The notes under the pieces were generated by a model. The model had not been told where the DNA came from. It was given only the letters and a program-made list of their open reading frames with translations, and made no database searches. Below are positions 43,278-61,376 of a DNA stretch of 64,000 nucleotides, piece after piece (positions within the stretch are counted from its first letter, which is position 1; each line of letters opens with the position of its first letter). The stretch comes from Phaeospirillum sp. (GTDB lineage Bacteria; Pseudomonadota; Alphaproteobacteria; Rhodospirillales; Magnetospirillaceae): positions 24,001 to 88,000 of the forward strand of contig JAUSFB010000032.1 in NCBI GenBank assembly GCA_030651575.1. The letters are read 5' to 3'. The translations under genes and the position numbers were made by a program.

Positions 43278-43285
43278 TGGGGCGA

Positions 43286-43671: not shown

Positions 43672-43672
43672 A

Positions 43673-44014: not shown

Positions 44015-44095
44015 GCGTTATCCCCTGTTGATATATAGGCGTGTGTCTGTCAGCCCATATATCAAAATCGCCCCAATAAGCCAAGAGCCGGAAAT

Positions 44096-44212: not shown

Positions 44213-44220
44213 AAAAAAAT

Positions 44221-44304
44221 TTGCATTTCTATATATTGGAGTATAATAACTGGGCTTAAGATGACTTCCGGACAAAGCCCCATCCCTCACGGTTTGGGGC
44301 TTTT
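44221..44304 (+). ncRNA. candidate short RNA with promoter and terminator
   Basis: TTGCAT, 15 bases, TATAAT (44242-44247) predicts a start near 44254. The transcript would begin GCTTAAGATGACTTCCGG and end at a hairpin AAGCCCCA / TGGGGCTT followed by TTTT (44275-44304). So an RNA of about 50 bases is plausible. The -35 spacing is short and no expression data are available. Confidence 0.45.
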
Positions 44305-44367
44305 CCTTTGACTTTTTTTGGAACCGCATATAATGCAGAGCAATTCGTACCGGAAGTCATCTTAAGC
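44254..44367. repeat. 18-bp perfect inverted repeat
   Basis: GCTTAAGATGACTTCCGG at 44254-44271 and its exact complement at 44350-44367, separated by 78 bases. The second arm lies just after another promoter-like pair (TTGACT 44308, TATAAT 44329-44334). Confidence 0.85.
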
Positions 44368-44738
44368 AATGGCTAAACCGGGGGGCGCCTATAGGAGCTG
44401 ATATCTTATAGGGTCAAACGCCGGGAGCTACACGAATTAAAATAATGCTTCCAGAACGATCAGAACTTTCTCGGACACCTCAGTTTACACGGAAAGTTAT
44501 CAGGGCATTGTGGAAATGGGGAATACCACCCCACCAGATGAAAACTTCACTGGTAAGCCTTGCGAAATGTAAAATCCACTCCAGTAGATCACCGTATAGG
44601 CGTATCGAAGACGCTCCACACTGCATAAGAAATTGCATGGGGGGTAGGGGGGATAAAGGAAATTTTGATGGCGAACAACAATCCCTGTTGTTTCCTCGAT
44701 TTCCGGAAAGCCGAGAAACTAAAACCAACGCTCTACAC

Positions 44739-44775
44739 CGCAAAACTCCTCGATACAGTAGAGTTTTGCGTTTTT
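44739..44775 (+). terminator. intrinsic terminator
   Basis: Stem CGCAAAACTC / GAGTTTTGCG (44739-44748 and 44761-44770) followed by TTTTT. Would end any transcript from the 44340 promoter-like box. Confidence 0.75.
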
Positions 44776-44988
44776 ATAACATTCGCTGTGTCCGTTAGAA
44801 ATGCCATGCGGCATTCGAGGTATTTCTAGGAGTGGATATATTTATAATCGATATCTGGGCGGGGTTTTCAGCGGGGTGATCCTGAATATACAAAGGGTAG
44901 ATATCGAGGTTGTGTTTTTCTTCGCCGTCTGTTTTGCATAAATCCGCGTTGTCGATATAATGAAATTGTAATCTTTAATCTGTTTTCT

Positions 44989-45168
44989 ATGGCAATTATC
45001 TCTGTGCGAGTGCCCGATAAGGTGGCGAGGCTTGTAAAGCCGCATTCTGTCGTAAGCTTTAGTGAATTAAAGGAAATCGAGGAGGAGGCTGGATGGGTGA
45101 GCTACCCGGTAAATCTTCCTGCTGTGGAGTTTTTGCGGCAGTTGCGCGGTATTATTGACGAAAAATAG
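44989..45168 (+). CDS. putative antitoxin of a RelE-type toxin-antitoxin pair
   Basis: 59 residues beginning MAIISVRVPDKVARLVKP and ending LRGIIDEK, with an acidic middle (KEIEEEAG). Not a recognised antitoxin family by motif; the call rests on its size and its position one base before a RelE-like toxin gene (TAG, C, ATG). A ribbon-helix-helix start is possible. Codes in standard sense codons only, and stops at TAG. Confidence 0.55.
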   Translation: MAIISVRVPDKVARLVKPHSVVSFSELKEIEEEAGWVSYPVNLPAVEFLRQLRGIIDEK

Positions 45169-45169
45169 C

Positions 45170-45412
45170 ATGGTATCCAGTTGGAAAAAAATAATACGCA
45201 AAGAGGATAAGAAAACGCAATTACTGCTTGAAGCCGTCGTATTGCAGATTCTTGCGGGACAAGTCGAGAAATTGGATATAAAACCCCTTGCCGGTCATCC
45301 GTGACTATATCGTTGCAGGCTGTGAAAAATGAGGATCATCTATAAATGCGATGGTGATATCGTGGAGATTGTTGCCATTCGGTATCGAGGCGACGTATAT
45401 AAGGGATATTAG
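45170..45412 (+). CDS. RelE/ParE-family toxin read through two in-frame TGA codons
   Basis: With TGA as sense the frame gives 80 residues ending at TAG. Pieces: KKTQLLLEAVVLQILAGQ, then VEKLDIKPLAGHP, TGA (45302), LYRCRL, TGA (45323), KMRIIYKCDGDIVEIVAIR, YRGDVYKGY. RelE proteins read ..LKG.PGLYRLRVGDYRIIY.., so the second TGA sits on the nearly invariant Gly after R-x-R-x, and the first on a position that is often Gly. Under the standard code only a 44-residue fragment is made. Either a recoded gene or a toxin inactivated twice at Gly codons. Confidence 0.7.
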
Positions 45413-45415
45413 CCC

Positions 45416-45440
45416 AAAAAGGCCTGCCACGGCTTTTTTT
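45416..45440. terminator. bidirectional terminator between convergent genes
   Basis: AAAAAGGCC, six-base loop, GGCTTTTTT: nine pairs including one G-U, with A and T runs on either side, between the toxin gene and the convergent HTH gene. Confidence 0.6.
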
Positions 45441-45442
45441 AT

Positions 45443-45880
45443 CTATCCGAATACCTTCCACCAGTGCCTTTTTTGTGGTTCATTGGGGCTCGATAGAAGC
45501 CTTATCGCCTCGTTTGCTTTTATGTATTCTCGGGTTAGGTGCTCGCGTTCTGCCTCGGCTTTTTCCGCCCGGGCTTCTGCTTTTGCGAGTTGATCTTTCA
45601 AAATGGCTATAATATCGGCGTTCGCATATGGATTCGCATCGTTTCGCATTGGCGTTCGCACTGGTTCGTATTTGTCTTTTTCCTCTTCGTTATGAGGTTC
45701 CGGCTTGTTTTTTGGTTTTCCAAATACCTCCTCCAGTGCCACATAGAGTATTTTTATATTGCGTCATTCGTATTGAATATGCGAACGGTCTATAACCCCG
45801 CTCGCTATTTTTTTCTCTATTGTGCGCCTGCTGATGCCGAAAAGTTCTACAGCTTCCTTCATGCGAATGTATACGAACAT
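45443..45880 (-). CDS. HTH plus coiled-coil DNA-binding protein with one in-frame TGA
   Basis: With TGA as sense, 145 residues from ATG 45880 to TAG. N-terminal helix-turn-helix MKEAVELFGISRRTIEKKIA, then SGVIDRSHIQYE, TGA (45764-45766), RNIKILYVALEEVFG, a coiled coil KDQLAKAEARAEKAEAEREH and a C-terminal WWKVFG. Related plasmid/phage regulators have a D-G-R-R turn before the ..L..VFG segment, so Gly at the TGA is plausible. In the standard code it splits into 38 and 99 residues with no ribosome-binding site for the second part. Iterons lie inside the gene and its promoter, suggesting autoregulation. Confidence 0.65.
45620..45673. repeat. phased TTCGCAT iterons inside the HTH gene
   Basis: Five inverted-orientation units: CGTTCGCAT 45620-45628, GATTCGCAT 45632-45640, GTTTCGCAT 45642-45650, CGTTCGCAC 45654-45662, GGTTCGTAT 45665-45673. 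Centre-to-centre spacing of 10-12 bases places them on one DNA face. Confidence 0.8.
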
Positions 45881-46027
45881 GATTGCGTAATTATGCGAAT
45901 AAATATGCGAACGAACGCGAACACCCATGCGAAACGATGCGAATAATATGTTGAGTATATTGATAATGGAGAGAAAATCAAAAGATATGCGAACGGATGC
46001 GAAACGGTGCGAACGGATGTGCGAACT
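45779..46027. repeat. ATGCGAACG iteron array upstream of the HTH gene
   Basis: Units at 45779, 45861, 45871, 45893, 45905, 45915, 45927, 45937, 45987, 45997, 46007 and 46019 (consensus ATGCGAACG with A/T/C variants at the end). Several are spaced 10-12 bases. Lies between the HTH gene and the replication-relaxation gene, in AT-rich DNA. Confidence 0.85.
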
Positions 46028-46071
46028 ATTCGCTATTGCTCAAATACCCGCTCCAATACGCCACGCCGCAT

Positions 46072-47001
46072 TTATTCAAAAACATTCGCCTTTGTCCTGT
46101 CGGCCAACACCCAATCGCCTCCAAAATCGGCCTTCACGCTGTCCAAGCTGTTGAAGGCCATCAATTGAAAGGCCCGGCTGCCTCGGAAACCCGGCACATC
46201 AAGCAAACGATCCATGACGCGAACGGCTGCCTTGGCGTCGCAGAAGATATTCAGGACTCGCCCCGCCGCCTCATGGCCGAAGGCACGGGGATAGGCGTCC
46301 ATATCGAGAGCTGGGATATGGTTGACGAGTTTTTTCACGATCCGCCCGACATCTGGGAAGCGGTGCAGTTCGAGCGCCACTGCCCGTTTCTTCGTTCCGG
46401 TATCGAAGAAGGCCAGCCCGTCGGGGACGATGAAGCGATGGTGCGGAAGATCGACGCGGCACACCGAACGAAGGCGATTGCTTCCCGCCCGGTTCGCCCC
46501 GATCTTGTCGAAATAGTGCCGCGTTTCGAGGCACTCGCGCCTTTCGTCGGCAGCAACCCAAGCGTCGAACGCTATGCAGGCGTCGATATACGCGGCCCGA
46601 TGATCGAAGTCGTTCGCGTATTGAATGCCGCCCACCGGATAGCGGATATCCGCCACCTCCAAGCGATCCATATCCGCCACCAGTTCGGCCCCGTGCTTCG
46701 TCAGGGTGTAGACGCGGGGAATCCGCCCCTTGGCCGATTCCGGGGCGAAGTCGTGGAAGGCAATAAGGTTGTCGGTCGGACGCCGGCACAGCCGGGGCAG
46801 CACGTCGCTTCGGATATGGCTTTCATTCTTCGCCACGCCCAAGGCGATGAATTGGGCGACGGTGAGATAGCGATAGCGTGCAAGCGCCAACAAAACCCGC
46901 TGCTGCGGCACGCTGATGGCGTCAAGCGGACGATCCACGCTCCGCAATTCGCGGCGCTTCCTGGCTCGCTCGTGCAGCTTCTCGCTGTCGGTCTGTGTCA
47001 T
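46072..47001 (-). CDS. replication-relaxation family protein
   Basis: 309 residues. The winged-helix N-terminus (QQRVLLALARYRYLTVAQFI, VLPRLCRR) and the following core (VYTLTKHGAELVADM, YANDFDHRAAYIDACIAF) fit the replication-relaxation family found beside conjugation coupling ATPases on plasmids and integrative elements. Its precise role is unclear. 15 bases downstream of the TraD-like gene on the same strand. Stops at TAA. Confidence 0.78.
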   Translation of the reverse strand: MTQTDSEKLHERARKRRELRSVDRPLDAISVPQQRVLLALARYRYLTVAQFIALGVAKNESHIRSDVLPRLCRRPTDNLIAFHDFAPESAKGRIPRVYTLTKHGAELVADMDRLEVADIRYPVGGIQYANDFDHRAAYIDACIAFDAWVAADERRECLETRHYFDKIGANRAGSNRLRSVCRVDLPHHRFIVPDGLAFFDTGTKKRAVALELHRFPDVGRIVKKLVNHIPALDMDAYPRAFGHEAAGRVLNIFCDAKAAVRVMDRLLDVPGFRGSRAFQLMAFNSLDSVKADFGGDWVLADRTKANVFE

Positions 47002-47016
47002 GGTGGGAGGGCTTTG

Positions 47017-48753
47017 TTAGTCGATAGGAAATTGGGTCTGCGCGGTCCTGGTGTCCGCCGCCGTTACCGATGCCACAGGACGATAGAAGCGGGATGCTTG
47101 GTTATCGCGCACCGCCTCCCATGCCTCCGCCGATATGGCCCCCTGGTTCTTGATCCGGTGCGACGGCATCCGCTTGACAACGCCCTTGCGGCTTCCCGCC
47201 TTGATATGGAAATACCCGGTTGAGAGGGCTTGCAGCTCGTCCAGGTCGGCGCCGGTTTCGTCGGCGATCTTCTTCAGGGTGAATAGGGCGTTTTTGCCGG
47301 TGATCTTCACAGCGGTATTGCCCATAACGGCCTTAAGCAAGTCCGGGCTCATGTCATCGCCTAAAATCTGTTGTGCAAGGGTGAGATGCACTCCGTATTT
47401 CCGCGCTTCCTTTAAAAGCACTCCGATACTGGCGGATATATAGTTCTGGCATTCGTCCACGAATACATGCACGGGCACGCGCCTTTCCGCCGGCATACGC
47501 CCTTGTTTGAAGGCGAACGCCTTGAGGCGGGCGATGATGAATTTCCCGATCAGGCTCGAAGCCGTTTCCTCGGCATCGCCTCGGCTGAAACGGAAAATCA
47601 CCACAGCCCGGCGGTTCAATTCGGCTTCGAGGCTGAACGTGCTTTTCCCCTGCGTCATCCCCGAGAAAAGCGGATTGCCTCCCAGCACCTCGAAAAGACG
47701 CATCCGCACGCCACGTTTGCTGATATCCATGTTCTTGTCGCGAAACTCGCGCCGGAAAAATTCCCGATACATGGAATCCATCAACACCCGGTCGGCAAAC
47801 GCCAACCATTCATCGTTTTTTGTATCGTCCAAGAATTCCATAAGGTCGAGAATGCGCGATCCCGGCTTGTAGAGCATCACCGTCAGACAAGCGGAAATCA
47901 GCGTCCGCATTTGCGGGGTGAATTCCATCCCTTCCACCAGTTCCGGAAACACCTCGATCAATTGCTTGACGACAATGGAAATGTCTTTGGGATTCCGCTC
48001 GTCATCCAGAATATCGAGCGGATTGAATACCGGCATTTTTCCAGGAGATAGGGACGGGTCGATATATACCAGCCGCGCGCCGTCCGAGAGCTCCGGCCAG
48101 TGCCCAACCTCTTCGGCAACGTCGCCATGCGGATCTATTAAGACCACGCCCGTTGAGGTGTTGCGGGTGAGGTAATGATAGATTATGGCTTTCAGGGCTT
48201 CTGACTTTCCGGAGCCTGCGGCCCCGGTTATGTAGGTGTGCCGCCTGCGATCTTCCTCAGATATGGGAAGCGTCCAAAACCGATCAAAAAAAAAGCTCCG
48301 AGCCTCCGGATTCTCCGCACACAGAAAACGTATATACCCCAGGTCAGAGTCTTCGTAATTTTCCTCGAATGTCTCGCGCTCTTTTCGTTTTTTCTCATAG
48401 GCGGAAAGTTTGGAATTATATATTTCCCGAAGCCGGGTTTCGATCAGGGCGATGACATAGGGAAGCCTTGCTGGGTCGCGCTCAATGGCGCGGGCCTCGG
48501 CATCAATGTAGTCGGCGGAGGGCTTGGCGGGCTTCAGGCCATCGCGAGCCGAAAACGCCTTATGGAAGTCCGCCCATCTGGTCAGCCCCGCGAGTTCGGC
48601 AAAGGTGTCCGCCACATCGCGGCCGAACGAGGGCAAGTCGGCAAGCCGGAATTTGCCGATCTCCACATCAAGCCCGTCATCGCCTCCGGCGAGATGCCGG
48701 GCAAGCGCCGTTTCCATGGCGTCGGACATCGTTTGCGACAACCCATCCCCCAT
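47017..48753 (-). CDS. VirD4/TraD-like conjugative coupling ATPase
   Basis: 578 residues. Walker A ITGAAGSGKSEALKAIIYHY, a Walker-B-like VVLIDPHGD, and VHVFVDECQNYISASIG; later LTLAQQILGDDMSPDLLKA and ISAEAWEAVRDN. It resembles the soluble DUF87/TraG-type DNA-pumping ATPases; no clear N-terminal membrane anchor is seen. The start is uncertain (48753 or 48732) because it lies inside a 12-bp tandem repeat. Ends TAA. Confidence 0.82.
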   Translation of the reverse strand: MGDGLSQTMSDAMETALARHLAGGDDGLDVEIGKFRLADLPSFGRDVADTFAELAGLTRWADFHKAFSARDGLKPAKPSADYIDAEARAIERDPARLPYVIALIETRLREIYNSKLSAYEKKRKERETFEENYEDSDLGYIRFLCAENPEARSFFFDRFWTLPISEEDRRRHTYITGAAGSGKSEALKAIIYHYLTRNTSTGVVLIDPHGDVAEEVGHWPELSDGARLVYIDPSLSPGKMPVFNPLDILDDERNPKDISIVVKQLIEVFPELVEGMEFTPQMRTLISACLTVMLYKPGSRILDLMEFLDDTKNDEWLAFADRVLMDSMYREFFRREFRDKNMDISKRGVRMRLFEVLGGNPLFSGMTQGKSTFSLEAELNRRAVVIFRFSRGDAEETASSLIGKFIIARLKAFAFKQGRMPAERRVPVHVFVDECQNYISASIGVLLKEARKYGVHLTLAQQILGDDMSPDLLKAVMGNTAVKITGKNALFTLKKIADETGADLDELQALSTGYFHIKAGSRKGVVKRMPSHRIKNQGAISAEAWEAVRDNQASRFYRPVASVTAADTRTAQTQFPID

Positions 48754-48799
48754 GCTCTACGACATAATTTGTGACACGGTTTGCGACATTGTATGTGAC
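48728..48799. repeat. 12-bp tandem array at the start of the TraD-like gene
   Basis: Six consecutive 12-base units: ATCGTTTGCGAC (48728), a degenerate unit (48740), ATGCTCTACGAC (48752), ATAATTTGTGAC (48764), ACGGTTTGCGAC (48776), ATTGTATGTGAC (48788). Consensus AT.GTTTGYGAC. On the minus strand it would encode an M-S-Q-T type tetrapeptide repeat broken by a TAG. Confidence 0.85.
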
Positions 48800-49152
48800 A
48801 ACAATGAAAAGTCAAAATTATCCATACTGACAAACGCTTAACCGTCAATTATTCAATTCGCCTCCCTCCTCATTCTCTGTATGTATCGGCACCATCGCCC
48901 ATCCGTCGCCTCGCTCGTTCCTCGCTTGCCTCCGTCTGGCCGTCAGGTGCCGCCATATCCCTCGAATTCGTCGGGCGGTAGGGCGACGGGGCAGGGCGGA
49001 ACGGAACACTCCGCACCATCCGCCGCCCTACGGGCGGCCCGTCCAAACGTCGGCCCGATTGTCGCGATAGCCGCCCGGATCATCGCTGGCGATGCGAAGC
49101 CATGCGGCTTTACGGTCGTGATGGCGTGATACAGGCCATGGCGCTGCCTATT
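48800..49152. other. intergenic region, possible transfer origin
   Basis: About 350 bases, GC-rich on the right. An imperfect inverted pair (GTAGGGCG near 48977 and CGCCCTAC near 49027) and the tandem array to its left would suit a regulatory or oriT region. No protein gene accepted. Confidence 0.35.
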
Positions 49153-49632
49153 TTATTGTGGTGACGCTGTCGCCGGATATTCCCGAACGGCTTTCACGAC
49201 GCTCGTGATGGCTTCCACAATCTTATCAATATCTTTGCTATTGTGTATTTTAGCGGGATCGATCTCAACGCCACAGGTTTTCATAGTCTTTCCAGCAATG
49301 TCCGATTTTTCACGGGTGTTATTCGGATCAGTTAGTTTCCATTCATTCATAACCTGTATTATGGAAGCAATTTCCCGTGATCTATTGCCATGAAGCACTT
49401 CCAATCGGTCCCGGAGCGTGCGTTTGCCTTCCTCCGAAAGAAATGGTGCCGCATCGTCGGCATATCCCGGAAACATTGGGACGGACACATCCGGTCTGGA
49501 AATATCCGTGCTCCTCGCTGGCATTGATGCAGTCGGCCTTGCTGCGCGATGATCGAACCATGGCGTAAACATGAAAACGAATATGGCAATCACTGCGATT
49601 ATAACGAGCGCTTTAACTTTGGTTATACTCAT
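49153..49632 (-). CDS. membrane-anchored hypothetical protein
   Basis: 159 residues from ATG 49632. One N-terminal membrane segment (VKALVIIAVIAIFVFMF), a periplasmic or cytoplasmic domain of about 120 residues with SEEGKRTLRDRLEVLHGNRS and one Cys in MKTCGVEID. No family recognised. Last of three same-strand genes (51051 down to 49153). Stops at TAA. Confidence 0.55.
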   Translation of the reverse strand: MSITKVKALVIIAVIAIFVFMFTPWFDHRAARPTASMPARSTDISRPDVSVPMFPGYADDAAPFLSEEGKRTLRDRLEVLHGNRSREIASIIQVMNEWKLTDPNNTREKSDIAGKTMKTCGVEIDPAKIHNSKDIDKIVEAITSVVKAVREYPATASPQ

Positions 49633-49692
49633 TGCAATCTGCCATTTCCGATTTTGTTGACGCAATACCAGCCCTTACCCCGTATTTTCCCG

Positions 49693-50445
49693 TCAGAACA
49701 CCCCGCGCTGTTTCGCTGTGTCAATCCAGGCGTCAACCTCCTCGGGCGTCGGTGGAGCGGGGTTGCTGCTGGCCCGCTCGATCAAGCACACCGCAAGCCG
49801 GGTAACTTCCGAATGGGTGAGTTCCTCGTTGCGAAGACGGCTTTGCAGGCACGCCATGATGATTTCGTGGCTGCGTTCGTTCGAGCGATGGCCTTCCGCC
49901 TGTTCGGCAAGATGTTCGGTTATCTTGCCTTGCGCCTTCGCGGCAAGGATGCTGCCGAGGGCATTTGAAAGGGCGTGGTCGCAGTCCTCGCCCCGCTTCA
50001 GATACGACGCGGCATGATCGAACGCGAGGCCGTGAGCGCGCTTCGTTATCTCCGTCGTCACCTCGGCATTCGCAAGCCCCACGGCGTTCGAATGGCGGAG
50101 CCGTTCGAGGCTCATGGCTCCCCGCTGTTCGATCTCCGCGACGGCCATGCCCGTGCGCGCCTGGATCAAGGCTGTTTCCCGTTCGGCCTCCCGGTCGCGT
50201 TCGTTCCGTTCCCGCTCGTATTCGAGCTTCGAGCGCGCAAGCGCCATATCGTCCGAGTGGTGTCGCTCACCCTGGTTGAGCTTCGCGCTTTCGATGTGCA
50301 TCTTGTCGGAATGCTGCTGCACATTCTGTTGCAGCTTCGCACTGGCCACGTCGGCTTTCAGGGCGAGTTCGTCGGCCCGGTGCTGCCGGTCGTGACGGCC
50401 CGCAAAGTCCCCAAGATCGGCGAGGGTGATCGGCAATCGCGCCAT
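49693..50445 (-). CDS. coiled-coil hypothetical protein
   Basis: 250 residues, soluble. Long charged helices (about 30-120: SAKLQQNVQQHSDKMHIESA, ARSKLEYERERNERDREAER) and a C-terminal helical domain (LTHSEVTRLAVCLIERASS). No known family. It ends in TGA, but only five further sense codons follow before TAA, so the true stop is ambiguous if TGA is recoded in this element. Nine bases downstream of the next gene. Confidence 0.55.
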   Translation of the reverse strand: MARLPITLADLGDFAGRHDRQHRADELALKADVASAKLQQNVQQHSDKMHIESAKLNQGERHHSDDMALARSKLEYERERNERDREAERETALIQARTGMAVAEIEQRGAMSLERLRHSNAVGLANAEVTTEITKRAHGLAFDHAASYLKRGEDCDHALSNALGSILAAKAQGKITEHLAEQAEGHRSNERSHEIIMACLQSRLRNEELTHSEVTRLAVCLIERASSNPAPPTPEEVDAWIDTAKQRGVF

Positions 50446-50454
50446 GACGTTCCC

Positions 50455-51051
50455 CTATATGCTCTTGATGAGTTCGACGCGCCGGCGTTCGCGCTCTTCC
50501 TCTTCCTGCCGGAGAAGGCGCGCGGTTTCAATGGCGGCATCCTGTTCCTTGATGGCGAGGTTCGCCAGGGCGACACTCTTTTTCAGTTCGATATCGGCCA
50601 AGGCTTGAGCTGCCCGGACTTCCTGCCCGGCAGGCGACGCCCAATATGCCTCTTCCCGTTCCGCCTTCAGGCGTTCGGACTCGGCATTCGCGGCAACAAG
50701 GGCTCGCCGTTCGCGTTCGGGACGCTCGCGCTCCGCTCGGTTCCGTACTGCCGCCTCCCGATTCCTCCGGATGGCAAAGCGGGCAAGAGCGACAAACGGG
50801 CGGATGGGGAAATACACGATTTTCCCGACGGTCGGGACGAGTTGCAGCCCGTCACCGTCGCTTCCGCGAAATGCGATCCAATTGAGGATGCGGAGAACGA
50901 AGTACAGAACATATCCACCCGCCACGAACATCAACGTGAACGTGATGAACATTCCGACTCTCCGGCCCTCGAACTCCGCGTCCTGGGAGGCAAAGGCAGC
51001 ACCGATTGCCGCCAGCAACAGAATGACCCTGAATACTTTCTTGTCGCCCAT
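50455..51051 (-). CDS. membrane protein with charged coiled-coil tail
   Basis: 198 residues from ATG 51051. Two N-terminal membrane segments (FRVILLLAAIGAAFAS and ITFTLMFVAGGYVLYFVLRI), then a long Glu/Arg-rich coiled coil to the C-terminus. With the two downstream genes it forms an apparent operon of membrane plus coiled-coil proteins. No family recognised. Stops at TAG. Confidence 0.6.
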   Translation of the reverse strand: MGDKKVFRVILLLAAIGAAFASQDAEFEGRRVGMFITFTLMFVAGGYVLYFVLRILNWIAFRGSDGDGLQLVPTVGKIVYFPIRPFVALARFAIRRNREAAVRNRAERERPERERRALVAANAESERLKAEREEAYWASPAGQEVRAAQALADIELKKSVALANLAIKEQDAAIETARLLRQEEEERERRRVELIKSI

Positions 51052-51285
51052 TCGAACCGTCCGGAGCCAGCATCTTCGTGGAACGCATGCGGAAGCGCCG
51101 CGCCCATTTTTCCAATCGCTGAACGATATGACGGGAGGCCGCTTGGCGCAATGCAAGGCACGCCTGCCGACAAATTTTCCCGGACGATATAAATGCGATA
51201 ATTTGCGAAAATAACTTATTAGGTATATACTAAGCAAGTAATTCACATTTTACCGATGTGACCACTATTTTATTCGATTCATTCA

Positions 51286-51921
51286 ATGTTTATGTGAGAT
51301 GCAATACAGGAGGCCGGCGATTCCGTTTCGGCTCGAACAAATTCGGCAAAGCCATATGTGCCAGAGTCGGGCGAATCTGTTACCGCCAGAAAAGTTGCTG
51401 AATTCGAGGAAAGATGGCGCGGAATGTGCGGAATGCTTTCATCGATAACCGACAAGGGAGTTGAAGCATACAAATCCGCTTCAATGTCCCAGGTCAATGC
51501 CGCTCATGAAGTCGATCATTTCATACAGCAAGCTGGCGCAAAGCTCCTTATTTCGGTCGTCGAGCAAACGCATGAAATCGATATAATCAAGACGCTGTGC
51601 AATTCAACGACGGCTCCCGAAAATGTGGTCTTGGCGGCTGGCAGGGCCTTTAAGGCGTTGGAAAGAAAAAGGATAGAAGCGCTCGCCTCCGAGGTTGATG
51701 CGGAGTTGAGAACAGATCCTTTCCGCTGAATAGAGGCCTTTGTAGGGAGAGCGTATGACCGGACTCTTACCGGCCTCGCGGGCGGAATAAACGGTTCTGC
51801 AGTTCGTCTGATGCTTATGAAATACACGAATGACCGAAATTCATCGAATGACTTGAGATCGGCTGCGGAAAAATCCTATTCGTGGGTGATGGAGGATGAT
51901 TGCCGTAGGAGTTGAATTTAA
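51286..51921 (+). CDS. unknown protein, frame continuous only if TGA is sense
   Basis: From ATG 51286 the frame runs 211 codons to TAA with TGA at 51295, 51727 and 51913. The central part (51358-51729) is a 123-residue standard frame from GTG with no ribosome-binding site. Beyond the second TGA there are 61 further codons of ordinary composition (IEAFVGRAYDRTLTGLAGG, KYTNDRNSSNDLRSAAEKS). Trp is written TGG twice, so TGA is not needed for Trp. No family recognised; predicted mainly helical. The last TGA could be the true stop. Confidence 0.5.
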
Positions 51922-52240
51922 TAATGTTCCATTACAAAAAATTTGCACATTGACAATATGAGCGTCTTCTGTTTAAAGACGGCATGGTTGCCTGACGTAT
52001 AAGAAACCCCTCGACGGTAATAGAGGGGTTTTTCTTTGAGCGCCAACAGCAGGGGTGTCATAAGCGTACTGCGGATTAAGAAATAAAACGCAGGTACGCC
52101 CGCTGACGTATAAGCGGGCGCATGCCCGCGTCGGAGTTATATTCACAAGTGAAACAAAACAACATCGATTTTGCCAAAACGCCATTTCCGCATATGATGT
52201 ACAAAGTCCAAAGCGACCTTTGTCTTTTTACAACCTCCTC
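51922..52240. other. intergenic region before the serine recombinase
   Basis: About 320 bases. Holds a terminator (52004-52035), a 12-base direct repeat CTGACGTATAAG at 51992 and 52102, and a hairpin CGCCCGC / GCGGGCG at 52097-52120. No gene seen. Confidence 0.5.
52004..52035. terminator. intrinsic terminator
   Basis: Stem AAACCCCTC / GAGGGGTTT (52004-52012, 52023-52031) followed by TTTCTTT on the + strand. Confidence 0.8.
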
Positions 52241-52909
52241 ATGAATCTGCACCAACAAAGGCTTTTCGTGGCCTATTACAGGGTTTCGACGGATCGCCAA
52301 GGGCGCTCCGGCCTCTGACTGGACGCCCAGCGAGAAGCCGTCTCCAGATACGTCGAAAGGATCGGCGGGACGCTCGCGGGGGAGTTCACGGAGGTGGAGA
52401 GCGGCAAACGCGCGGATCGGCCGGAGCTTGCCCGTGCGCTCGATCTCTGCCGCCGGAAAAAGGCCGTCCTGCTGATCGCCAAGCTCGACCGGCTTTCCCG
52501 ATCCGTGGCCTTCATATCGAACCTCATGGAAAGCCGGGTAGACTTCCTGGCCGTCGATATGCCGGAGGCATCCCGCCTCACGATCCATATCCTTGCCGCC
52601 GTCGCCGAGCATGAGCGCGCGATGATTTCCGAGCGCACCAGGGCGGCAATGGCGCAAGCCAAGCTCCGGGGCGTGAAGCTGTGAAATCCCCGCCTCGACA
52701 GTGGGGAGGCGGCACAGGCCAACGTCCGGGCGGCGGATGCGTTTGCCTGCAAGGTCTACCCGATCATAGAGGACATGATTGCGGGAGGGCTTTCCCTTCG
52801 GGCTATGGCGCGAGAGCTCAACGAGCGGGGAATACGGACGCGAACCGGAAAACATTGGGCGGCGAGCACCGTGCGGAATATTATTCTATCCGGTCTACGA
52901 TACCGTTAA
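52241..52909 (+). CDS. serine recombinase (resolvase/invertase) with two in-frame TGA codons
   Basis: With TGA as sense, 222 residues from ATG 52241 to TAA. Catalytic Ser in AYYRVSTDRQGRSGL, then TGA (52316), LDAQREAVSRYVERIGG; Arg motif LIAKLDRLSRS; EHERAMISERTRAAMAQAK; LRGVKL, TGA (52682), NPRLDSGEAAQANVRA; and a C-terminal HTH SLRAMARELNERGIRTR. Family consensus at the two sites is S-G-L-G-L-x-A-Q and G-V-K-L-G-N-P, so both TGAs replace glycine. All other conserved residues are intact. Under the standard code only a central 97-residue piece is read. Confidence 0.8.
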
Positions 52910-52991
52910 TGTGTTTTGGCGAAATTTGCGCAATATCAAATTAAATGATACTATTGTTATAGTCATAAATTACACTATAACTGTTTAACGT

Positions 52992-53897
52992 ATGGATGGC
53001 GAACGAGGCATTGGCGCGGCGCCGGAATTGCATTCAAAAGATTCTGGCAGATACAGACAAATGGTTGATGACTTTGTCGTCAAGTTTTCAGATTTGGACG
53101 AACAGTTTATGTACAGCGACCCATCCAAGTGAATGGATTTGGGTCTCCTGATCCAATCCATGAGAGATGAGGTTTCCGGGCTTAATCAGAAAGAAAAACT
53201 TTCCTTCTTTGACGTTGCAAAGGACGAGCCATTTTCCGCATGAAGAAATATCGTTATCTGAACTATCGCAGAATCAGAAAGCAATCCATATTTCAAAAAA
53301 TATATGGTCGAGTCGCTGGATCAAGAAACGGTGCGACTTTATGCCAATTCGCTCTATAGCGGCATCAATGACGAAGCATGGCTTAAACAGCAAATAACAA
53401 GGCATTCCCACCCATTAGGGGAGATGGATGATCCGGAGCGTTTTGACAAGATTCCTTTCTGGGAGGAGGGGATTGATCCTAAAACGGGGGAATTCACAAA
53501 CGATCAGTGGATAACTGGAATGGGGGTGAGTGGAAATTGGCAGGTAAGGATATTGGATAATATAAACGATCCTCAGTATATTGCCGATACCGTACTTGAT
53601 GAAACAGCAGATGAAATGGTGCGCTTGCTAGGTCTAAAGAAGCTTGCCTCATATAGAGGGCTTTCCGGCTCCGAAGAATTAGCCGAGTCTGGCCTGAATG
53701 GGGATGAGTTGTCAGCCAAGGCAGAAGCTTTCCTATCGGGCTTGGCGCAGGGCGACATTGGTATGATTTATCCGGTGCGCGTTGAGGATCAGCCCACACG
53801 TTGGAGCGACGGCATGCCACAGCCTTGAGAAAGCGAAAGCTACAACAGCGATGTGATTCGGAAATACGCAAGATTTTTAGCAAGTCGCAACACCTAA
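52992..53897 (+). CDS. unknown protein with four in-frame TGA codons
   Basis: 301 codons from ATG 52992 to TAA, with TGA at 53130, 53241, 53259 and 53826 and no TAA or TAG. Sequence includes RYRQMVDDFVVKFSDLDEQF, MDLGLLIQSMRDEVSGLNQK, YMVESLDQETVRLYANSLYS and QWITGMGVSGNWQVRILDNI. Five Trp residues are TGG. The standard-code fragment 53304-53828 is 174 residues. More AT-rich than its neighbours. No family recognised. It converges with a small zinc-finger gene. Confidence 0.55.
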
Positions 53898-53943
53898 GTG
53901 TTGCGTTGGCGCTTCGAAGTCGGCGCAGTTTTTGGGCCTATGG

Positions 53944-54162
53944 TTAATAATCCCCACGCCCTTCATAGTCGCGTGACGGATGGGACGATGCCTTTTCCAT
54001 GCAGATTGATGAGCAATAGACCCGATCATATTTGTCGTGATGGTGGACGCTATTGCGCCCACCGATAAATTTCGCGCACCAATGACAGCAATATAAAGCT
54101 CTGGGATCGTCATTCAGACGGCTTACCGTATCGCCAATGTCACCGGCCGAATCTTCCATCAT
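53944..54162 (-). CDS. small zinc-finger-like protein
   Basis: 72 residues with ALYCCHWCAKFIGG and VYCSSICMEKA, two Cys pairs that could bind zinc. Function unknown. Its ATG shares a base with the stop of the upstream MORN gene (TAATG), indicating translational coupling. Stops at TAA. Confidence 0.55.
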   Translation of the reverse strand: MMEDSAGDIGDTVSRLNDDPRALYCCHWCAKFIGGRNSVHHHDKYDRVYCSSICMEKASSHPSRDYEGRGDY

Positions 54163-55709
54163 TATCCGCCTTTACATGCCTTGCGGAACATTTGTTCACG
54201 CGTAAGGGTATAATCGGCACCCGCTGTCGATGCGGAAAACCCGCCTGATCCCCATGAATAGACATTACTGCCACCCTTCTGCGTTACCCACGCATAGCCG
54301 CCGTCTTTACATGAAGCCTGCCACGTCGTTTCGCCGTTAGCGGATTTTGGCGTTCCGGCAAGCAGCTCGAAATCACCGGAGCGGCTTGCCGCTATTTCCG
54401 CAGTTGACGTTCTGGCAGAACGGCATGTGTCAGCCTTGTCGTGGAATGTTATGCACTGAAGGCCCCCGCCCGCATAAAACGTCCCTTCCACCCAACCCTT
54501 TCTGCCATGGTTGAAGGTGTAGTAGGCGCGGACTACTGCCATGGAATTATCAGCGTGGCGCGATTTGACCTTTGCGAAAGTCAAGCTGCCGCTGTCATAA
54601 GTGTTAAATGCCCAATTCGTCGCGTCATCGGCCACCGCCTTGGAGAGAATGGTTTCGGCCTGCTCACGCTCTTTGGCGGTGCTTTGGTGCCGTGCCGTCT
54701 CGCCGAGCGGCACGCCTGAGTCCCATAACCCTTCGTACCGGTCTCCGTCGAGAAATTCCCCCGTACCAGATCCGTGGGGTTTGCTGTTGGCGAATTCCCC
54801 AATATATTTTCTCAACCCAAGGGAGTTGCTGTTTGCCCAGACGAAAGTGCCCGTACCGTTTCCCGGCCCATTATTAAATGTGCCTTCGTACCGGTCGCCA
54901 TTGGCCCAGGTGTAAGTGCCTTTGCCGTTCATTTTTCCAATCTTGAATGTGCCTTCGTACCGGTCGCCATTGGCGGGAGCAAAGACGCCATCGCCATGCG
55001 GACGCCCGCCTTGGAACGATCCTTCATATCGTTCCATGACTTGCTTTCCTGCGTTGTATCGCGTCAGCACGCCGGAGCCCTCAACGAAGCCCTCACGGCA
55101 CCCCCCATTCCAGGCAATGCTTTCGTCTGCCTGTGAATTTGGAAGCACGACGGCACACCCTGTACTTGGATCTGCGATAGCTGCCATGTACAGTTTTTCT
55201 CGTGAAAACTCCCCCTGCTCAATATAGTTGTTACCGACCCAACGTCCTTTGTTTGAGTTTTTAGACGAATTGTATTTGTTTCTTGGTGTTGTCAACGTGC
55301 CCAAGCCACCACTTTTCTCATCGTTAACAAACGTTCCCACATAGACCACACCGTTAAGGGAAAGAGTGCCGTTTCCCTCTCTTTTATCGTTTCTCCATTC
55401 TCCTACGTATTTCTCATCGTCTGCCCAAATGTAGGTTCCGATCCCGTGCTTTTTGCCATCAACGAAATCCCCCCTATACTCGTAGCGCCCCCTCGCGAAA
55501 CCTTGCCCGTTCGCTAATCCTTTGGCGCATCCGCCGGAATATTCGATCGATATGCCTGGATCGATGACCTTGCATTTTGGGGAACCGCTGGCGGCCTGGT
55601 TAACCGTGGCTTTCATTTCATTCATGGTCTGGCAGCCCGAAAGCAACAGCGATCCGGATGCGGCCAAAAGAACCGAAAGCACCGATTTAAGCGAATGAGC
55701 GTCCCTCAT
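54162..55709 (-). CDS. MORN-repeat lipoprotein
   Basis: 515 residues from ATG 55709. Lipoprotein signal with lipobox SLLLSGC (Cys about residue 26). About eight MORN units, for example YVGEWRNDKREGNGTL, RYEGSFQGGRPHGDG and RYEGTFKIGKMNGKGTYTWA. The C-terminal ~160 residues form a separate Cys-containing domain (GWVEGTFYAGGGLQCITFH). MORN repeats bind lipids or act as scaffolds; the role here is unknown. A preceding GGGGGA serves as ribosome-binding site. Confidence 0.8.
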   Translation of the reverse strand: MRDAHSLKSVLSVLLAASGSLLLSGCQTMNEMKATVNQAASGSPKCKVIDPGISIEYSGGCAKGLANGQGFARGRYEYRGDFVDGKKHGIGTYIWADDEKYVGEWRNDKREGNGTLSLNGVVYVGTFVNDEKSGGLGTLTTPRNKYNSSKNSNKGRWVGNNYIEQGEFSREKLYMAAIADPSTGCAVVLPNSQADESIAWNGGCREGFVEGSGVLTRYNAGKQVMERYEGSFQGGRPHGDGVFAPANGDRYEGTFKIGKMNGKGTYTWANGDRYEGTFNNGPGNGTGTFVWANSNSLGLRKYIGEFANSKPHGSGTGEFLDGDRYEGLWDSGVPLGETARHQSTAKEREQAETILSKAVADDATNWAFNTYDSGSLTFAKVKSRHADNSMAVVRAYYTFNHGRKGWVEGTFYAGGGLQCITFHDKADTCRSARTSTAEIAASRSGDFELLAGTPKSANGETTWQASCKDGGYAWVTQKGGSNVYSWGSGGFSASTAGADYTLTREQMFRKACKGG

Positions 55710-55974
55710 GGTCTTCGATCCCCCTGAAATGATACTGCGTACCTCGCGCCGCATTCCGAGCCCGTGCGGTACGGGAAGCCCCCGAAATCGTTTTCTTCAA
55801 TCTTTCGTCATGCCTGCAACCTGATCCAGGTGCCTGCCGGAATCGGCACCGAAGCCCCTATATATCCGTTTTTGCCATTTCCATGGACGGCAATTCCCCT
55901 CCCGGTCACGCAATTTTCTTGCTTATCGACCCAACGGCTACCCGCCTTGGCTTCACACCCGATTCCAACCCTGA

Positions 55975-57615
55975 CTAGAACAACGTAATCGCATTCGACG
56001 TTACCGTTCGCGCGTTGTTGCTCGCATCCCTCACGACAAGCGTAACTTGTGCGTGGTCATCAACTGGATAGGTTCCGCTGAATGTCAGCGTCGTTGTCCC
56101 GATGCCCCCGCTAACGGTAATGCTGCCGCCACCCCCGACAAATCCAAGGCCAGATACGGACGCCACGGGTTCATTGAACGTCATGGTTCGCCCGGCAAAG
56201 CCGCCCCCGGAACTACCAGCAGGGAAGAATTCGGAAACTTTCGACGGTGCCGTTGTATCCGCACCAGCCTTGTTGCGTTGGATCTCCGCGTTCTTGTCGC
56301 TCGTCGCCTGTCGGCTGAAATCCTGCGTCCGCTTTATTGCCGCCTGCACCTGCTGCGGCTGCAAGCCCGCCGAAGCCGCCGAAAGCTGCATGGTCGGGCC
56401 TGTCCCCCGATCATTCGAAGTCGGGCGGCTTACCTCGGCACCTGTCGGCGGCATGAAGCCCATGCGCGCCAAGCCGTTTTCGGCATGGGCTATGCGGTCG
56501 GGCACGCCCGCCCCGGCATCCGAGGAGGTGAAGGACAACGGCGCGTGTCCGTCGCTTACGGCAAGGGTGCTGGCGTGCTGGCGGTCGCGGTCGGAAAACA
56601 GGTCTGAAACCTTCCACGAGGCAAGAATTTGCTGTTCGTGGTTACTGGTCTGGCGGTAGCTGATCGACACCGGCCCCAACTCTGCGGCGGCGGTCGCGCC
56701 GACCACGCCGCGCGTGTCGCCGTCCGCTCCGAACCCCACCAGCCAGTGAACGGGATTTTTGAAATAGTCGGCACCGAGGAAGGCAACGCCCATGCCGCTA
56801 TTGCCCACCACCACGTTTTGGGTGCTGTCATCGACATGGTTGTAATGGCCGTAGTTCGCACCCACGCCGGCAGAAACCGGCAAATACTGGCCGAACGGCG
56901 CGAGCGTGACGGCGCGCAAGGAAAGGTCAACCGCATGGGTGCGCGGCGCTCCCTCGTCGCCCTGCCGCACCATCGGGGCATAGGTATAGGCGAGCGTCCC
57001 CGACAGGGCGGAGGTGTTGTCTAGGATGGCCTGCAAGCCTTTCCGCAGCGAGGCGGGGACGCCCGGCTTCACCCATTGCCGGCTGTCGCTCCGCTTGAAC
57101 CAATTCAGATAGCTGGTGTAGCCCCAAACGTCCGCCCCGCCGGTCGAGAAAGATTGGTTCTCGCGGCTGACGTATTCGCCCACGGTGAAAGATGAAAGCG
57201 GGTCAATGCCGGGGGCGATAAACTGGTATTGCCCATAAAACTCGCTGGCGTGCTCATTGGTGAGAAAGCCCCCGCCGATGGCGCGGCGGCGGGCCTCGTC
57301 CAACGTCGCGCCGAAGGTCATGCCGCCGCGCGCGTTGTATCGGTTGTCCCACTTGCCATGAACGGCAATATCGGTGCTGTCATAGCCAAGGCTGACGTCC
57401 TGGCCACGATCCGCGCCCGTATCGGCATTCTGCCCGAGGTATCCCCAATCGAAGCCGCCCGCGCCCGGTTGACGATATGCCGCCGCGTCGGAGGTGTCGC
57501 CAGCGCCCGGCAATACGCTCAAAACAGGGCTTGCCGCAAACCCGGCCCCGGCATTGGCCAACATGGCGAACCCCAACACACCCGCCGGCAATGCACCACG
57601 CCAAGACCGTTTCAT
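55975..57615 (-). CDS. exported, probably outer-membrane, beta-rich protein
   Basis: 546 residues. Signal peptide through about residue 28 (VLGFAMLANAGAGFAA). The body alternates Gly and aromatic residues in a beta-barrel-like pattern (YTSYLNWFKRSDSRQW, GVGANYGHYNHVDD, WLVGFGADGDTRGVVG). A helical linker about 410-450 and a C-terminal Ig-like segment (ITVSGGIGTTTLTFSGTYP) follow. It recalls invasin-type barrels, but this is not certain. Divergent from the XRE regulator. Stops at TAG. Confidence 0.6.
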   Translation of the reverse strand: MKRSWRGALPAGVLGFAMLANAGAGFAASPVLSVLPGAGDTSDAAAYRQPGAGGFDWGYLGQNADTGADRGQDVSLGYDSTDIAVHGKWDNRYNARGGMTFGATLDEARRRAIGGGFLTNEHASEFYGQYQFIAPGIDPLSSFTVGEYVSRENQSFSTGGADVWGYTSYLNWFKRSDSRQWVKPGVPASLRKGLQAILDNTSALSGTLAYTYAPMVRQGDEGAPRTHAVDLSLRAVTLAPFGQYLPVSAGVGANYGHYNHVDDSTQNVVVGNSGMGVAFLGADYFKNPVHWLVGFGADGDTRGVVGATAAAELGPVSISYRQTSNHEQQILASWKVSDLFSDRDRQHASTLAVSDGHAPLSFTSSDAGAGVPDRIAHAENGLARMGFMPPTGAEVSRPTSNDRGTGPTMQLSAASAGLQPQQVQAAIKRTQDFSRQATSDKNAEIQRNKAGADTTAPSKVSEFFPAGSSGGGFAGRTMTFNEPVASVSGLGFVGGGGSITVSGGIGTTTLTFSGTYPVDDHAQVTLVVRDASNNARTVTSNAITLF

Positions 57616-57720
57616 GCCGCTTCCCCCTCAAGCGAGAGCCATGGCGCCACGGTTAATATCGTCAGCACCCGAACCACTGGCGGTTAGGTATCACGCACCC
57701 TCAAGGCGATCAATGACAAA

Positions 57721-57751
57721 TCGTTATTGAGTCAACGACGATAAGTCGTTG
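57721..57751. promoter_or_regulatory. operator-like dyads before the XRE regulator
   Basis: CAACGAC GATAA GTCGTTG (57733-57751) is a perfect 7-bp dyad; it overlaps TCGTT..AACGA (57721-57738). Lies between the divergent XRE and outer-membrane protein genes, so XRE autoregulation and control of the exported protein are likely. Confidence 0.65.
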
Positions 57752-57785
57752 GCACGGCGGTTGCGCTTTGCGGGATAACTCCCAA

Positions 57786-58745
57786 ATGGCTCGAATTGGT
57801 GAAAAGCTCCGGGAACGGGCACAGGTTCTTGGGTTGTCGGACACAGAGGTTGCCCGGCGCGTAGGCTTGAGTCAGTCACGGTATGCGAATTACGTGCTAG
57901 GGAAGCGAGAGCCAGACTTCGGGACACTGGTGAAGATTTGCTTCGTCCTTGGAACGTCTCCGAACTACTTGATCGGGTTCGGCGAGGAGCTTGAAGATAA
58001 ATCTGTAAGCGGTCAGCTTCGGCGCGAAATCCGCGAGACGCTTATCTCCATGGGGGAGGATGCGCTTCGGACGACCTTGAGCGTGACGGCTGCGCTGGTG
58101 GCATCGCAAAATCAGAGATTGGCGATCCTTACGGAAGAAACCGTCCTTCCGGTCTCGTGCGAATACAACCCGACGAAGGGGATACATCGGACGCTTCCGG
58201 AAGGTGAGGCCGAAGAAACCCTTTTCCGGCTTTGGATGGGGCCGCGCCGCAAGCGGTTCGCCGACCTCGGCGCGGTCGCGTCCGCAAGCGATCTGCGATC
58301 AGAGCGACCCGACATCGCGGAAATTTTCGAGGAATGGAAATTAGGCCTGACCGTCTTCAAGGAGCAGCGAGAGCGCTTTTGGGTCATGGACTGGCACTCG
58401 GGAGCACCCGTGGCAGCCGACCGGGAGATTGTAAAGATCGAGCAGGGCGGCGGGGCGTACTGGGTCGAAGTCGATTCCCGCAAGACCGTCACCGGAAGAT
58501 GGCATATCGTCAACGATACGATGATAGTGATACGTGTTGACGACGTTTCGGCTCGCAAAGACATCTATATTGCTTTCCATCCTGAGGATGGCGAGAAGTA
58601 CGCTATGGAAGAAATGGCCGACGCTGCCCCGTCATATTTTAGAATTCGGCCAATGAGTGTGCTTATGTGCGATGACGATGCGGAAGAGGACTTCTCTTCT
58701 TCGTTCAGAATGATCGAGGATTTCAAGAAAGGCGTTCGCGGATAA
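57786..58745 (+). CDS. XRE-family transcriptional regulator
   Basis: 319 residues from ATG 57786. N-terminal HTH: LGLSDTEVARRVGLSQSRYA and FGTLVKICFVLGTSPNYLIG. The C-terminal part (about 150-300) looks like a LexA/S24-type beta fold by spacing (VKIEQGGGAYWVEV, WHIVNDTMIVIRVDD) but no Ser-Lys dyad is clear. Likely controls the divergent exported-protein gene. Stops at TAA. Confidence 0.82.
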   Translation: MARIGEKLRERAQVLGLSDTEVARRVGLSQSRYANYVLGKREPDFGTLVKICFVLGTSPNYLIGFGEELEDKSVSGQLRREIRETLISMGEDALRTTLSVTAALVASQNQRLAILTEETVLPVSCEYNPTKGIHRTLPEGEAEETLFRLWMGPRRKRFADLGAVASASDLRSERPDIAEIFEEWKLGLTVFKEQRERFWVMDWHSGAPVAADREIVKIEQGGGAYWVEVDSRKTVTGRWHIVNDTMIVIRVDDVSARKDIYIAFHPEDGEKYAMEEMADAAPSYFRIRPMSVLMCDDDAEEDFSSSFRMIEDFKKGVRG

Positions 58746-58843
58746 CCTCTTTGCGGCGGGAAGGTGCCCATTCCTTCGAAAAATTTGGAAAGCTGGCGGC
58801 AGCGGATATAATCGGCGGGTTGATTGATAACCCGTGTGCCGAC

Positions 58844-59272
58844 ATGACAGAAACGAGCCTTAAAGCCACCATAGAAACCACCGTTGACGGCATATTTGAT
58901 GCCGTCCTGAAAGCCGGATTTTTGCCGGAGCGGCGTGTACGCCTCCAGGTCGAGTACATCGAGGAGGATGGGGACATGCCTCCGGGGTTCGTCCTTATCG
59001 AGAGCGGCGGCAAGCGAACGCTGTCCGGCGTGACGCTCGAAACCATGCCGCAGGCAATCCGGAAGCTCGGGCTTCTGCCCGATCAAGAGTTCTCGATCAT
59101 AATCGAGGATGACGAGGGCGAAGCTGAATCCGCAGAGAGCGACGATGGCAATGGAAAAAAGAGCCGATTGGAGAAATTACGCGCGCTCAAAGGTTTCGGC
59201 GCGAAGCTATACGGCCCGCGAACGGTGGAAGACATAGACGCTCAAGTTCGTGAGTTCCGGGGCGATGAATAG
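58844..59272 (+). CDS. hypothetical acidic protein
   Basis: 142 residues from ATG 58844 (MTETSLKATIETTVDG). Predicted alpha/beta with an acidic linker (IIEDDEGEAESAESDDGNG) and a basic C-terminal helix. No family recognised. About 100 bases after the XRE gene, same strand. Stops at TAG. Confidence 0.5.
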   Translation: MTETSLKATIETTVDGIFDAVLKAGFLPERRVRLQVEYIEEDGDMPPGFVLIESGGKRTLSGVTLETMPQAIRKLGLLPDQEFSIIIEDDEGEAESAESDDGNGKKSRLEKLRALKGFGAKLYGPRTVEDIDAQVREFRGDE

Positions 59273-59295
59273 AGGCCGTTTCAGCGCGGCGCAGC

Positions 59296-59598
59296 CTATG
59301 ACGTGGTATCCCTGAAGATCGCAGGAACATCGCGGCGACCATCAACAATGCGGGCAATCTCGATGCCATCCGATGCGGCACGATAGAAAATAAGGTAGTT
59401 GCCCACAGGAAAGCTGAACATTCCTTTTATGATATTATCTCTGTCTCGACCTATTTGAGGGTACTCGGAAATAAGCTCGCATGTCTTATCAATAAGACGC
59501 AACATATTGTCCGCCGCATCTTCATTGTGTGGCCTAATATACGTCCATATTTCGGCCAAATCCTGCTCGGCAAGCGGGGAATATATAAAACTAGGCAT
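59296..59598 (-). CDS. parE: ParE-family toxin
   Basis: 100 residues of the RelE/ParE fold: YSPLAEQDLAEIWTYI, EYPQIGRDRDNIIKGM, FPVGNYLIFYRAASDGIEIA and RIVDGRRDVPAIF. ParE toxins usually poison DNA gyrase. Overlaps the upstream antitoxin gene by eight bases. All-standard codons; stop TAG. Confidence 0.9.
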   Translation of the reverse strand: MPSFIYSPLAEQDLAEIWTYIRPHNEDAADNMLRLIDKTCELISEYPQIGRDRDNIIKGMFSFPVGNYLIFYRAASDGIEIARIVDGRRDVPAIFRDTTS

Positions 59599-59845
59599 TC
59601 GTTGCCGTCGATTTCAGTCTTTTGAGCAAGCTTTCAATGTCGAGCGGCTTTCCCTGGCCCGCGTCAAGCTGGTCAAGCCCTGCCTGCACATCGGCCCGCA
59701 GCGTTGCCAGCTTTGCCGCATCTTCTGGTGAGAGGCGACGAGCTTCGACGATGTACACATCATCGGCAGTGCCGTCCTCAAACTGAACGGCGAGGCTCCT
59801 TGGCAGCTCATTCCCACGTAAAGTTTCAAGTGCGGTATGCGGCAT
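59591..59845 (-). CDS. parD: ParD-like antitoxin
   Basis: 84 residues from MPHTALETLRGNELPRSL; the C-terminal part ATLRADVQAGLDQLDAGQG and LDIESLLKRLKS is typical of antitoxins partnered with ParE. An in-frame start at 59869 is also possible. It probably maintains the element. Confidence 0.82.
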   Translation of the reverse strand: MPHTALETLRGNELPRSLAVQFEDGTADDVYIVEARRLSPEDAAKLATLRADVQAGLDQLDAGQGKPLDIESLLKRLKSTATNA

Positions 59846-60026
59846 GCTATGTTCCTCCGTGGTCTTCATGTGGGCATTTTGACACCACAGCGCACCACAG
59901 GTAACGCTGTTGTGCATGATCGGAGCCATCCCTTGCGATCACGGGCGTCAGTTTACACGCCGCCCCCTGATCTCTCCAGTGTTCTAACGTGGCGTGGCGG
60001 GGGCGGGCTCGCCCGTTACGATCACA

Positions 60027-61361: not shown

Positions 61362-61376
61362 GGCTGACCTTCCTTC

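Follow-up and report, generated by a model that had tools for sequence, protein, structure and literature searches.

Introduction

Is a bacterial gene that is interrupted by in-frame stop codons necessarily a broken one? The question is raised by a small serine recombinase gene in a 64,000-nucleotide stretch of Phaeospirillum sp. DNA (GenBank assembly GCA_030651575.1, contig JAUSFB010000032.1, positions 24,001 to 88,000 of the forward strand). We refer to this whole stretch as the window and number all positions from its first letter. The gene lies within an 18.9-kb island with 120-base direct repeats at tRNA-Pro, and its frame contains two TGA codons. Based on comparisons with its orthologues, we propose that the gene probably encodes a functional recombinase of an integrative element, selected on its protein, whose synthesis would need the in-frame passage of one or two UGA codons. 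Ribosomes most likely pass UGA in this gene, giving a putative full-length protein. In bacteria, genes with in-frame stops tend to be recorded as pseudogenes; in this case a UGA is held at one codon under protein-level selection.

The recombinase reading frame

An earlier note on this DNA had described a complete recombinase frame departing from intactness only at two TGA codons, both at highly conserved glycine (Gly) positions, and both statements hold. The frame begins with ATG, reads through YRVST, LDRLSR and the C-terminal region and ends at TAA with no frameshift. The features of the gene are as follows.

52241-52909, + strand: small serine recombinase, 222 amino acids plus TAA, with two in-frame TGA (sequence reading, Pfam, orthologues)
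52316-52318, + strand: TGA, codon 26; Gly in 62 of 62 intact homologues; CTY-TGA-CTN context
52682-52684, + strand: TGA, codon 148; Gly in 62 of 62 intact homologues; in the window only
52757-52759, + strand: codon 173; TAC in the window, TGA in both M. fulvum orthologues

Pfam matches the translation, in which Gly stands for TGA, to Resolvase (PF00239; E 9.7e-29, 100.8 bits against a gathering cut-off of 23.3) and also to Recombinase (PF07508; E 2.7e-8). R14, S16, R84 and R87, which we take to be the catalytic residues, are invariant in an alignment of 17 sequences. The 4.2-Mb host genome also holds three intact homologues (52-59% identity) and four more distant matches.

TGA codons in relatives

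The codon-26 TGA is common to the window, M. fulvum DSM 13234, M. fulvum MGU-K5, M. sulfuroxidans J10 and Rhodospirillaceae UBA6219, which are all the nearest full-length orthologues, the window counted. Since it is shared across them, it is probably ancestral in the clade. The assemblies are drafts, which would leave room for sequencing or assembly error; nevertheless, the recurrence of this codon in five assemblies of different species or strains effectively refutes error for codon 26, and as an explanation of the locus error has a negligible chance. A second TGA stands at codon 173 in both M. fulvum strains, the codon-148 TGA belongs to the window alone among the orthologues, and the next relative (G001, 67% identity) has a TGA at codon 21 and Gly at codon 26. 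There are at least four independent stops (codons 21, 26, 148 and 173), and every one is TGA. The two nonsense changes that the earlier note had taken for independent events are thus both real, but they are unequal, codon 26 being shared and codon 148 window-specific. The recurrence of the codon-26 stop in several species whose copies are under selection makes the observation stronger than that note could know. Another close relative, in Terasakiella sp. PR1, is a fragment from codon 113 on and is uninformative for codons 21 and 26. In its contig (L103, 1-378) the recombinase breaks 60 bases from the contig end, and elsewhere on it lie an integrase of 79% identity and a stretch of 49 bases that repeats the 3' end of tRNA-Pro.

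How widespread are such genes? A family-wide search (55 genomes, 49 matches, E <= 1e-30) returned internal stops only in the six full-length members of the clade, all of them TGA. A search of the order (317 genomes, E <= 1e-50) flagged one extra row, G154, whose apparent internal TGA proved to be the terminal stop, and a search of the class (385 genomes drawn from a larger group) gave no further internal TGA among the matches listed. In IMG/VR a single-protein scan found no relatives, and an alignment scan showed a stop before the match end in none of the best 80 of 86 relatives; three rows with an apparent TGA there were terminal stops. Plasmid matches reached best identities of about 60% among those listed, and all 440 of 440 phage records lay below 60%. 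Within the six host genomes, 6 of 44 resolvase domains contain an internal stop, precisely the six genes of the TGA clade, and 1 of 100 integrase domains does, the stop being a TAA.

Selection on the recombinase protein

We computed the ratio of nonsynonymous to synonymous divergence (dN/dS) by NG86 for the five codon-26-TGA orthologues (10 pairs), for which dS is 0.73-1.20 in comparisons across species and 0.12 for the two M. fulvum strains. The ratio is 0.07-0.13 over all 10 pairs, with bootstrap upper bounds of 0.127-0.19; the window against its orthologues gives 0.10-0.12, with upper bounds of at most 0.18. The M. fulvum pair, trimmed to aligned extents and with two TGAs per copy, gives 0.037. 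By segment, dN/dS is 0-0.18 for codons 8-25, 0.03-0.10 for codons 27-147 and 0-0.21 for codons 149-216, the last being computable for 8 of 10 pairs, with two lost to saturated dS. The C-terminal part is faster (0.12-0.21 between species), likewise in pairs lacking a TGA at codon 148. As a control, 16 intact pairs (dS 0.6-1.25, dN <0.2) span 0.042-0.167, a range that includes the window's values. Distant intact pairs reached 0.3-0.8 because dS was saturated, and so were not used. The relaxed constraint (a ratio near 1) named beforehand in the earlier note as a refutation is absent, and its other refuting condition, homologues without Gly at the two columns, does not hold either. The opinion that this is not a true pseudogene is supported.

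The pattern of substitutions tells the same way. Differences between the window and M. sulfuroxidans are dominated by third positions (22, 22 and 90 at codon positions 1, 2 and 3), and where the window departs from four agreeing orthologues the changes, some of which may predate the codon-148 TGA, are 12 synonymous and 1 nonsynonymous. Between species, identity is 80-88% in the sense frame and 45-62% in the in-phase antisense and +1 frames, and over codons 1-215 the five orthologues have no indels. Other products of the locus were considered and rejected. The in-phase antisense frame has stops in four of five orthologues and 47-62% identity between species; the +1 frame, as a frameshift product, ends after 52 codons in 5/5 and is not conserved. 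An internal start would lose the catalytic Ser at codon 16, upstream of the stop, and codons 8-25 are themselves conserved.

A decaying pseudogene is consequently unlikely on this comparative evidence. Such a history would have an ancestral codon-26 nonsense allele carried along while more stops accumulated, and it would account for stops in all six full-length clade members and for the extra ones in two lineages; in-frame stops are also over-represented in the mobilome category (PMC7918605). It sits poorly with a dN/dS of about 0.1 at a dS of about 1, low in each computable segment and within the range of close intact pairs, with the lack of indels and with stops that are all TGA. In simulation without selection, a lineage keeps the TGA at codon 26 in 29% of cases. 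We regard this history as improbable.

Glycine columns and the residue at UGA

Which residue would be placed at UGA? Among the 62 intact homologues, Gly occupies codon 26 in 62, codon 148 in 62 and codon 21 in 61, and Gly reaches 95% or more in only 7 of the 222 columns. Those seven include the sites of three independent TGAs out of four, at codons 21, 26 and 148. IMG/VR relatives (rows from 83 aligned stretches on 80 loci) have Gly at codon 26 in 80/82, at codon 148 in 81/82 and at codon 21 in 75/81. The column of codon 173 is variable, with Gly in 7/68. Under neutral simulation, 21-28% of the stops that arise are TGA, and of these TGAs 0.8-13% hit columns of at least 95% Gly, the range being set by the starting sequence. 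The positions of the TGAs suggest the pattern expected of UGA read as Gly, yet four events are few. They also suggest that the residue at UGA is glycine or a tolerated substitute. In a predicted structure (mean pLDDT, the predicted local distance difference test, 83) a short helix contains codon 21, codon 26 immediately precedes helix 27-41, and codon 148 is part of a loop.

These columns speak for the idea that UGA is read specifically as Gly in the recombinase gene by a dedicated or conditional decoder, with full, conditional synthesis; a standard-code bacterium would then read UGA as Gly in one mobile-element gene, and the recombinase would be made only where or when it is decoded, much like the switch that the earlier note had thought possible. 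The decoder could be, for example, a UCA-anticodon tRNA charged with Gly, situated on another element or missed by our scans. Gly is tolerated at codon 173, and an efficient decoder would ease the burden of two serial TGAs under full selection. On the other side, the 66 hits of a tRNA(UCA) pattern in the six hosts yielded no such tRNA, and the AlpA-like gene of the same elements ends in TGA. We hold this idea only tentatively and think it rather unlikely overall.

The genetic code of the hosts and the search for a decoder

The earlier note had raised recoding of UGA. The part that concerns this one gene, in which UGA would be passed as a residue, is supported by dN/dS and by the Gly columns; recoding across the genome or the island is not supported by our tests. 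Release factor 2 (RF2) is intact in 6/6 hosts, and the single internal stop among the 100 integrase domains is a TAA. The island also contains the following gene.

43053-43277, + strand: AlpA-like regulator, TGA end

It ends in TGA at 5/5 loci having it (the window and L097-L100), so that within this very element UGA continues to act as a terminator. Upstream, in the core, 36 mechanically chosen open reading frames end in TGA 19 times, TAG 11 times and TAA 6 times. Genome-wide or island-wide recoding of UGA is not supported. Mechanically chosen reading frames of the island (42600-61600) end in TAA 10 times, TAG twice and TGA twice, a contrast with the core that base composition may explain.

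No tRNA-Sec was recognised in the six hosts: the best RF01852 scores are 48-54 bits, just above the cut-off of 47, but the two high-scoring rows per host checked by ARAGORN were ordinary tRNA-Ser in 12/12 cases, and seven other genomes of the family reach 70-76 bits. Of the 66 tRNA(UCA)-pattern hits, ARAGORN examined 65 and found none with that anticodon; the remaining one is the copy of the 3' half of tRNA-Pro at attR of the island. The pattern presumes A37 and a standard T arm, so that an unusual tRNA would escape it. The island held no suppressor tRNA, and the neighbourhoods of the relatives (9.6-20 kb) held only one tRNA-Ser(GCT) and one tRNA-Thr(CGT). A tRNA-Trp variant, marked by a UCA anticodon, by A24 as in the Hirsh suppressor or by an anticodon stem of 4 bp, was found in none of 8 genomes, in which tRNA-Trp(CCA) gave one match per genome, with a 5-bp stem and G24 in 8/8 (read by eye); a second, altered tRNA-Trp would escape this pattern.

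RNA structure was no more telling. Seven 60-base stretches after the TGAs (the last, of L055, starting just past its TGA) folded no more stably than shuffles, with z-scores of -1.1 to 1.0, and a consensus structure around codon 26 has poor support: of 33 pairs, two have double changes and many are broken. Selenocysteine was rejected, as there is no recognised tRNA-Sec in the hosts, no structure like a selenocysteine insertion sequence after the UGA, and the residue replaced is Gly.

Proposed passage of UGA

How, then, might the ribosome pass these codons? The base after TGA is C at codons 21, 26 and 173, and A at codon 148; UGAC is a leaky stop context. We favour near-cognate readthrough of a leaky UGA stop by an ordinary host, 3/4 independent sites being UGAC. 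The enzyme would then be kept very scarce, perhaps in a way that depends on conditions. Given that UGA is translated through, near-cognate readthrough would be somewhat the likelier route, a dedicated Gly-inserting decoder is possible though doubtful, and stop-hopping or some other event would be unlikely.

Stop-hopping deserves comment owing to the neighbourhood of codon 26, which reads CUC-UGA-CUG in the window, CUC-UGA-CUC in both M. fulvum strains and CUU-UGA-CUG in M. sulfuroxidans and UBA6219. The peptidyl-tRNA-Leu would quit codon 25, skip UGA and land on Leu codon 27, leaving a loop two residues shorter; the corresponding loop of gamma-delta resolvase is shorter. Leu codons flank the codon-26 stop in 5/5 orthologues, but L-G-L is conserved in intact homologues too, so the flanking codons need no special reason, and no such matched pair surrounds codons 21, 148 or 173. 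According to a review, in-frame hops can be made to occur in constructs but are not known from nature (PMC5009743). Overall we consider a hop at this gene very improbable.

The second association of codon 26 is with prfB, whose frameshift site has the core CUU UGA C. This core is identical in the recombinases of M. sulfuroxidans and UBA6219, and all five share an early UGA in CUY-UGA-C. Unlike prfB, the recombinase continues in the same frame, the +1 frame stopping as described above. In E. coli the UGA of the programmed +1 frameshift of prfB is codon 26 too (PMC5009743), and among Rhodospirillales frameshifting of prfB is reported to be predominant (PMC12421855). A crude scan near the prfB frames of the hosts, for which the wrong frame was taken in M. 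fulvum DSM 13234, showed no CUY-UGA slippery site. We treat the stop-hop geometry and the prfB-like core as leads, not as evidence of mechanism.

Several points weigh against a translated recombinase made by readthrough. The signal is carried by only six sequences from few lineages; as the orthologues have a common ancestry, codon 26 counts once. The dN/dS measure is useful for close pairs only, and the neutral simulations begin with present-day sequences, not ancestors. In a neutral simulation of one lineage, 7% of runs gained at most one new stop, so that the small number of extra stops is by itself weak evidence. The terminal stop is TAA or TAG in 6/6 TGA genes and TGA in 24/63 of the other rows, a weak trend that is suggestive only. 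No dedicated decoder was found, be it a tRNA(UCA), a tRNA-Sec or a conserved stimulatory RNA structure. Two UGAs in series at an ordinary leak would give very little protein, yet selection looks as strong as in intact genes. Finally, near-cognate readthrough is expected to insert mainly Trp in E. coli (PMC7918605), which fits near-invariant Gly columns badly.

Relation to known systems

What are the implications of a UGA that is kept and, as we propose, read through? The closest parallel is the survey of bacterial in-frame stops by Belinky et al. 2021 (PMC7918605), which likewise describes orthologous stops with dN/dS <1, over-represented in the mobilome, and proposes readthrough. Most of those cases are very recent, with 71% of pairwise alignments mismatch-free in a 30-base window and, around TGA, a dN/dS of 0.66 and a dS of 0.004; the recombinase TGA, by contrast, persists over a dS of about 1 with a dN/dS of about 0.1. 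TGA at near-invariant Gly is shared with the UGA = Gly code (code 25) of Absconditabacteria and Gracilibacteria (PMC13092985). The present hosts differ from those bacteria in that they keep RF2, end genes in TGA and are GC-rich. Selenocysteine insertion is alike in decoding an internal UGA and unlike in the features given above, namely the lack of a recognised tRNA-Sec and of conserved structure, and the replacement of Gly. Tn3/gamma-delta resolvase and the Gin/Hin invertases share with this enzyme the catalytic domain, the active-site residues and an inverted-repeat site by the gene, but not its PF07508-like C-terminus or its internal UGA. A literature search found this gene described in none of the titles and abstract openings listed, subscription journals being mostly outside its coverage.

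With M. fulvum and M. sulfuroxidans, the passage of UGA under the standard code can be put to a direct test on a natural bacterial example. Stop decoding may possibly serve to limit the dose of a mobile-element recombinase, and annotation pipelines may call such UGA-containing genes broken.

The island and the upstream inverted repeat

The remaining features of the island are listed here.

42601-42677, + strand: tRNA-Pro(GGG), island integration site
42630-42749, no strand: left direct repeat (attL side)
46072-47001, - strand: Replication-relaxation-like protein, conserved module (weak Pfam match below cut-off)
47017-48753, - strand: HerA/TrwB-like coupling ATPase, conserved module
49693-50445, - strand: module gene, no Pfam match
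50455-51246, - strand: module gene, no Pfam match
52198-52232, + strand: imperfect inverted repeat TGTACAAAG...TTTTTACA, 8 bases upstream of the ATG
60027-61463, - strand: tyrosine integrase of the island
61538-61657, no strand: right direct repeat (attR side), 87% identical to the left

The inverted repeat is kept in the TGA clade and diverged in G001; its exact core occurs once per host in five of six and is absent from G001. It is a candidate crossover and operator site of the recombinase. A single upstream site of this kind would suit recombination at that place, for example the resolution of element multimers, as the likely job of the enzyme. In many homologues of the family an inverted repeat of their own can be seen by eye, ending shortly ahead of the start codon and differing in sequence from clade to clade.

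The recombinase travels in a module that comprises the AlpA-like, Replic_Relax-like and HerA/TrwB-like genes, the two genes without a Pfam match and the recombinase itself. It is syntenic in L097-L100 and partly in L101, with differing sequence downstream, and the two genes without a Pfam match are poorly conserved in M. sulfuroxidans and UBA6219. Downstream of the recombinase the window has a MORN-repeat gene (54162-55754), and M. sulfuroxidans (L024, 5758-6872) has a tandem repeat of roughly 144 bases. In M. fulvum DSM 13234 two copies of the AlpA-like region about 16 kb apart flank the module (L099, 259-625 and 16319-16681). Within the AlpA-like coding sequence of the window, positions 43116-43214 match the Rfam family Trans44_sRNA (RF02649; 34.9 bits, E 9e-6, cut-off 108), and that family may in part represent AlpA-type mRNA.
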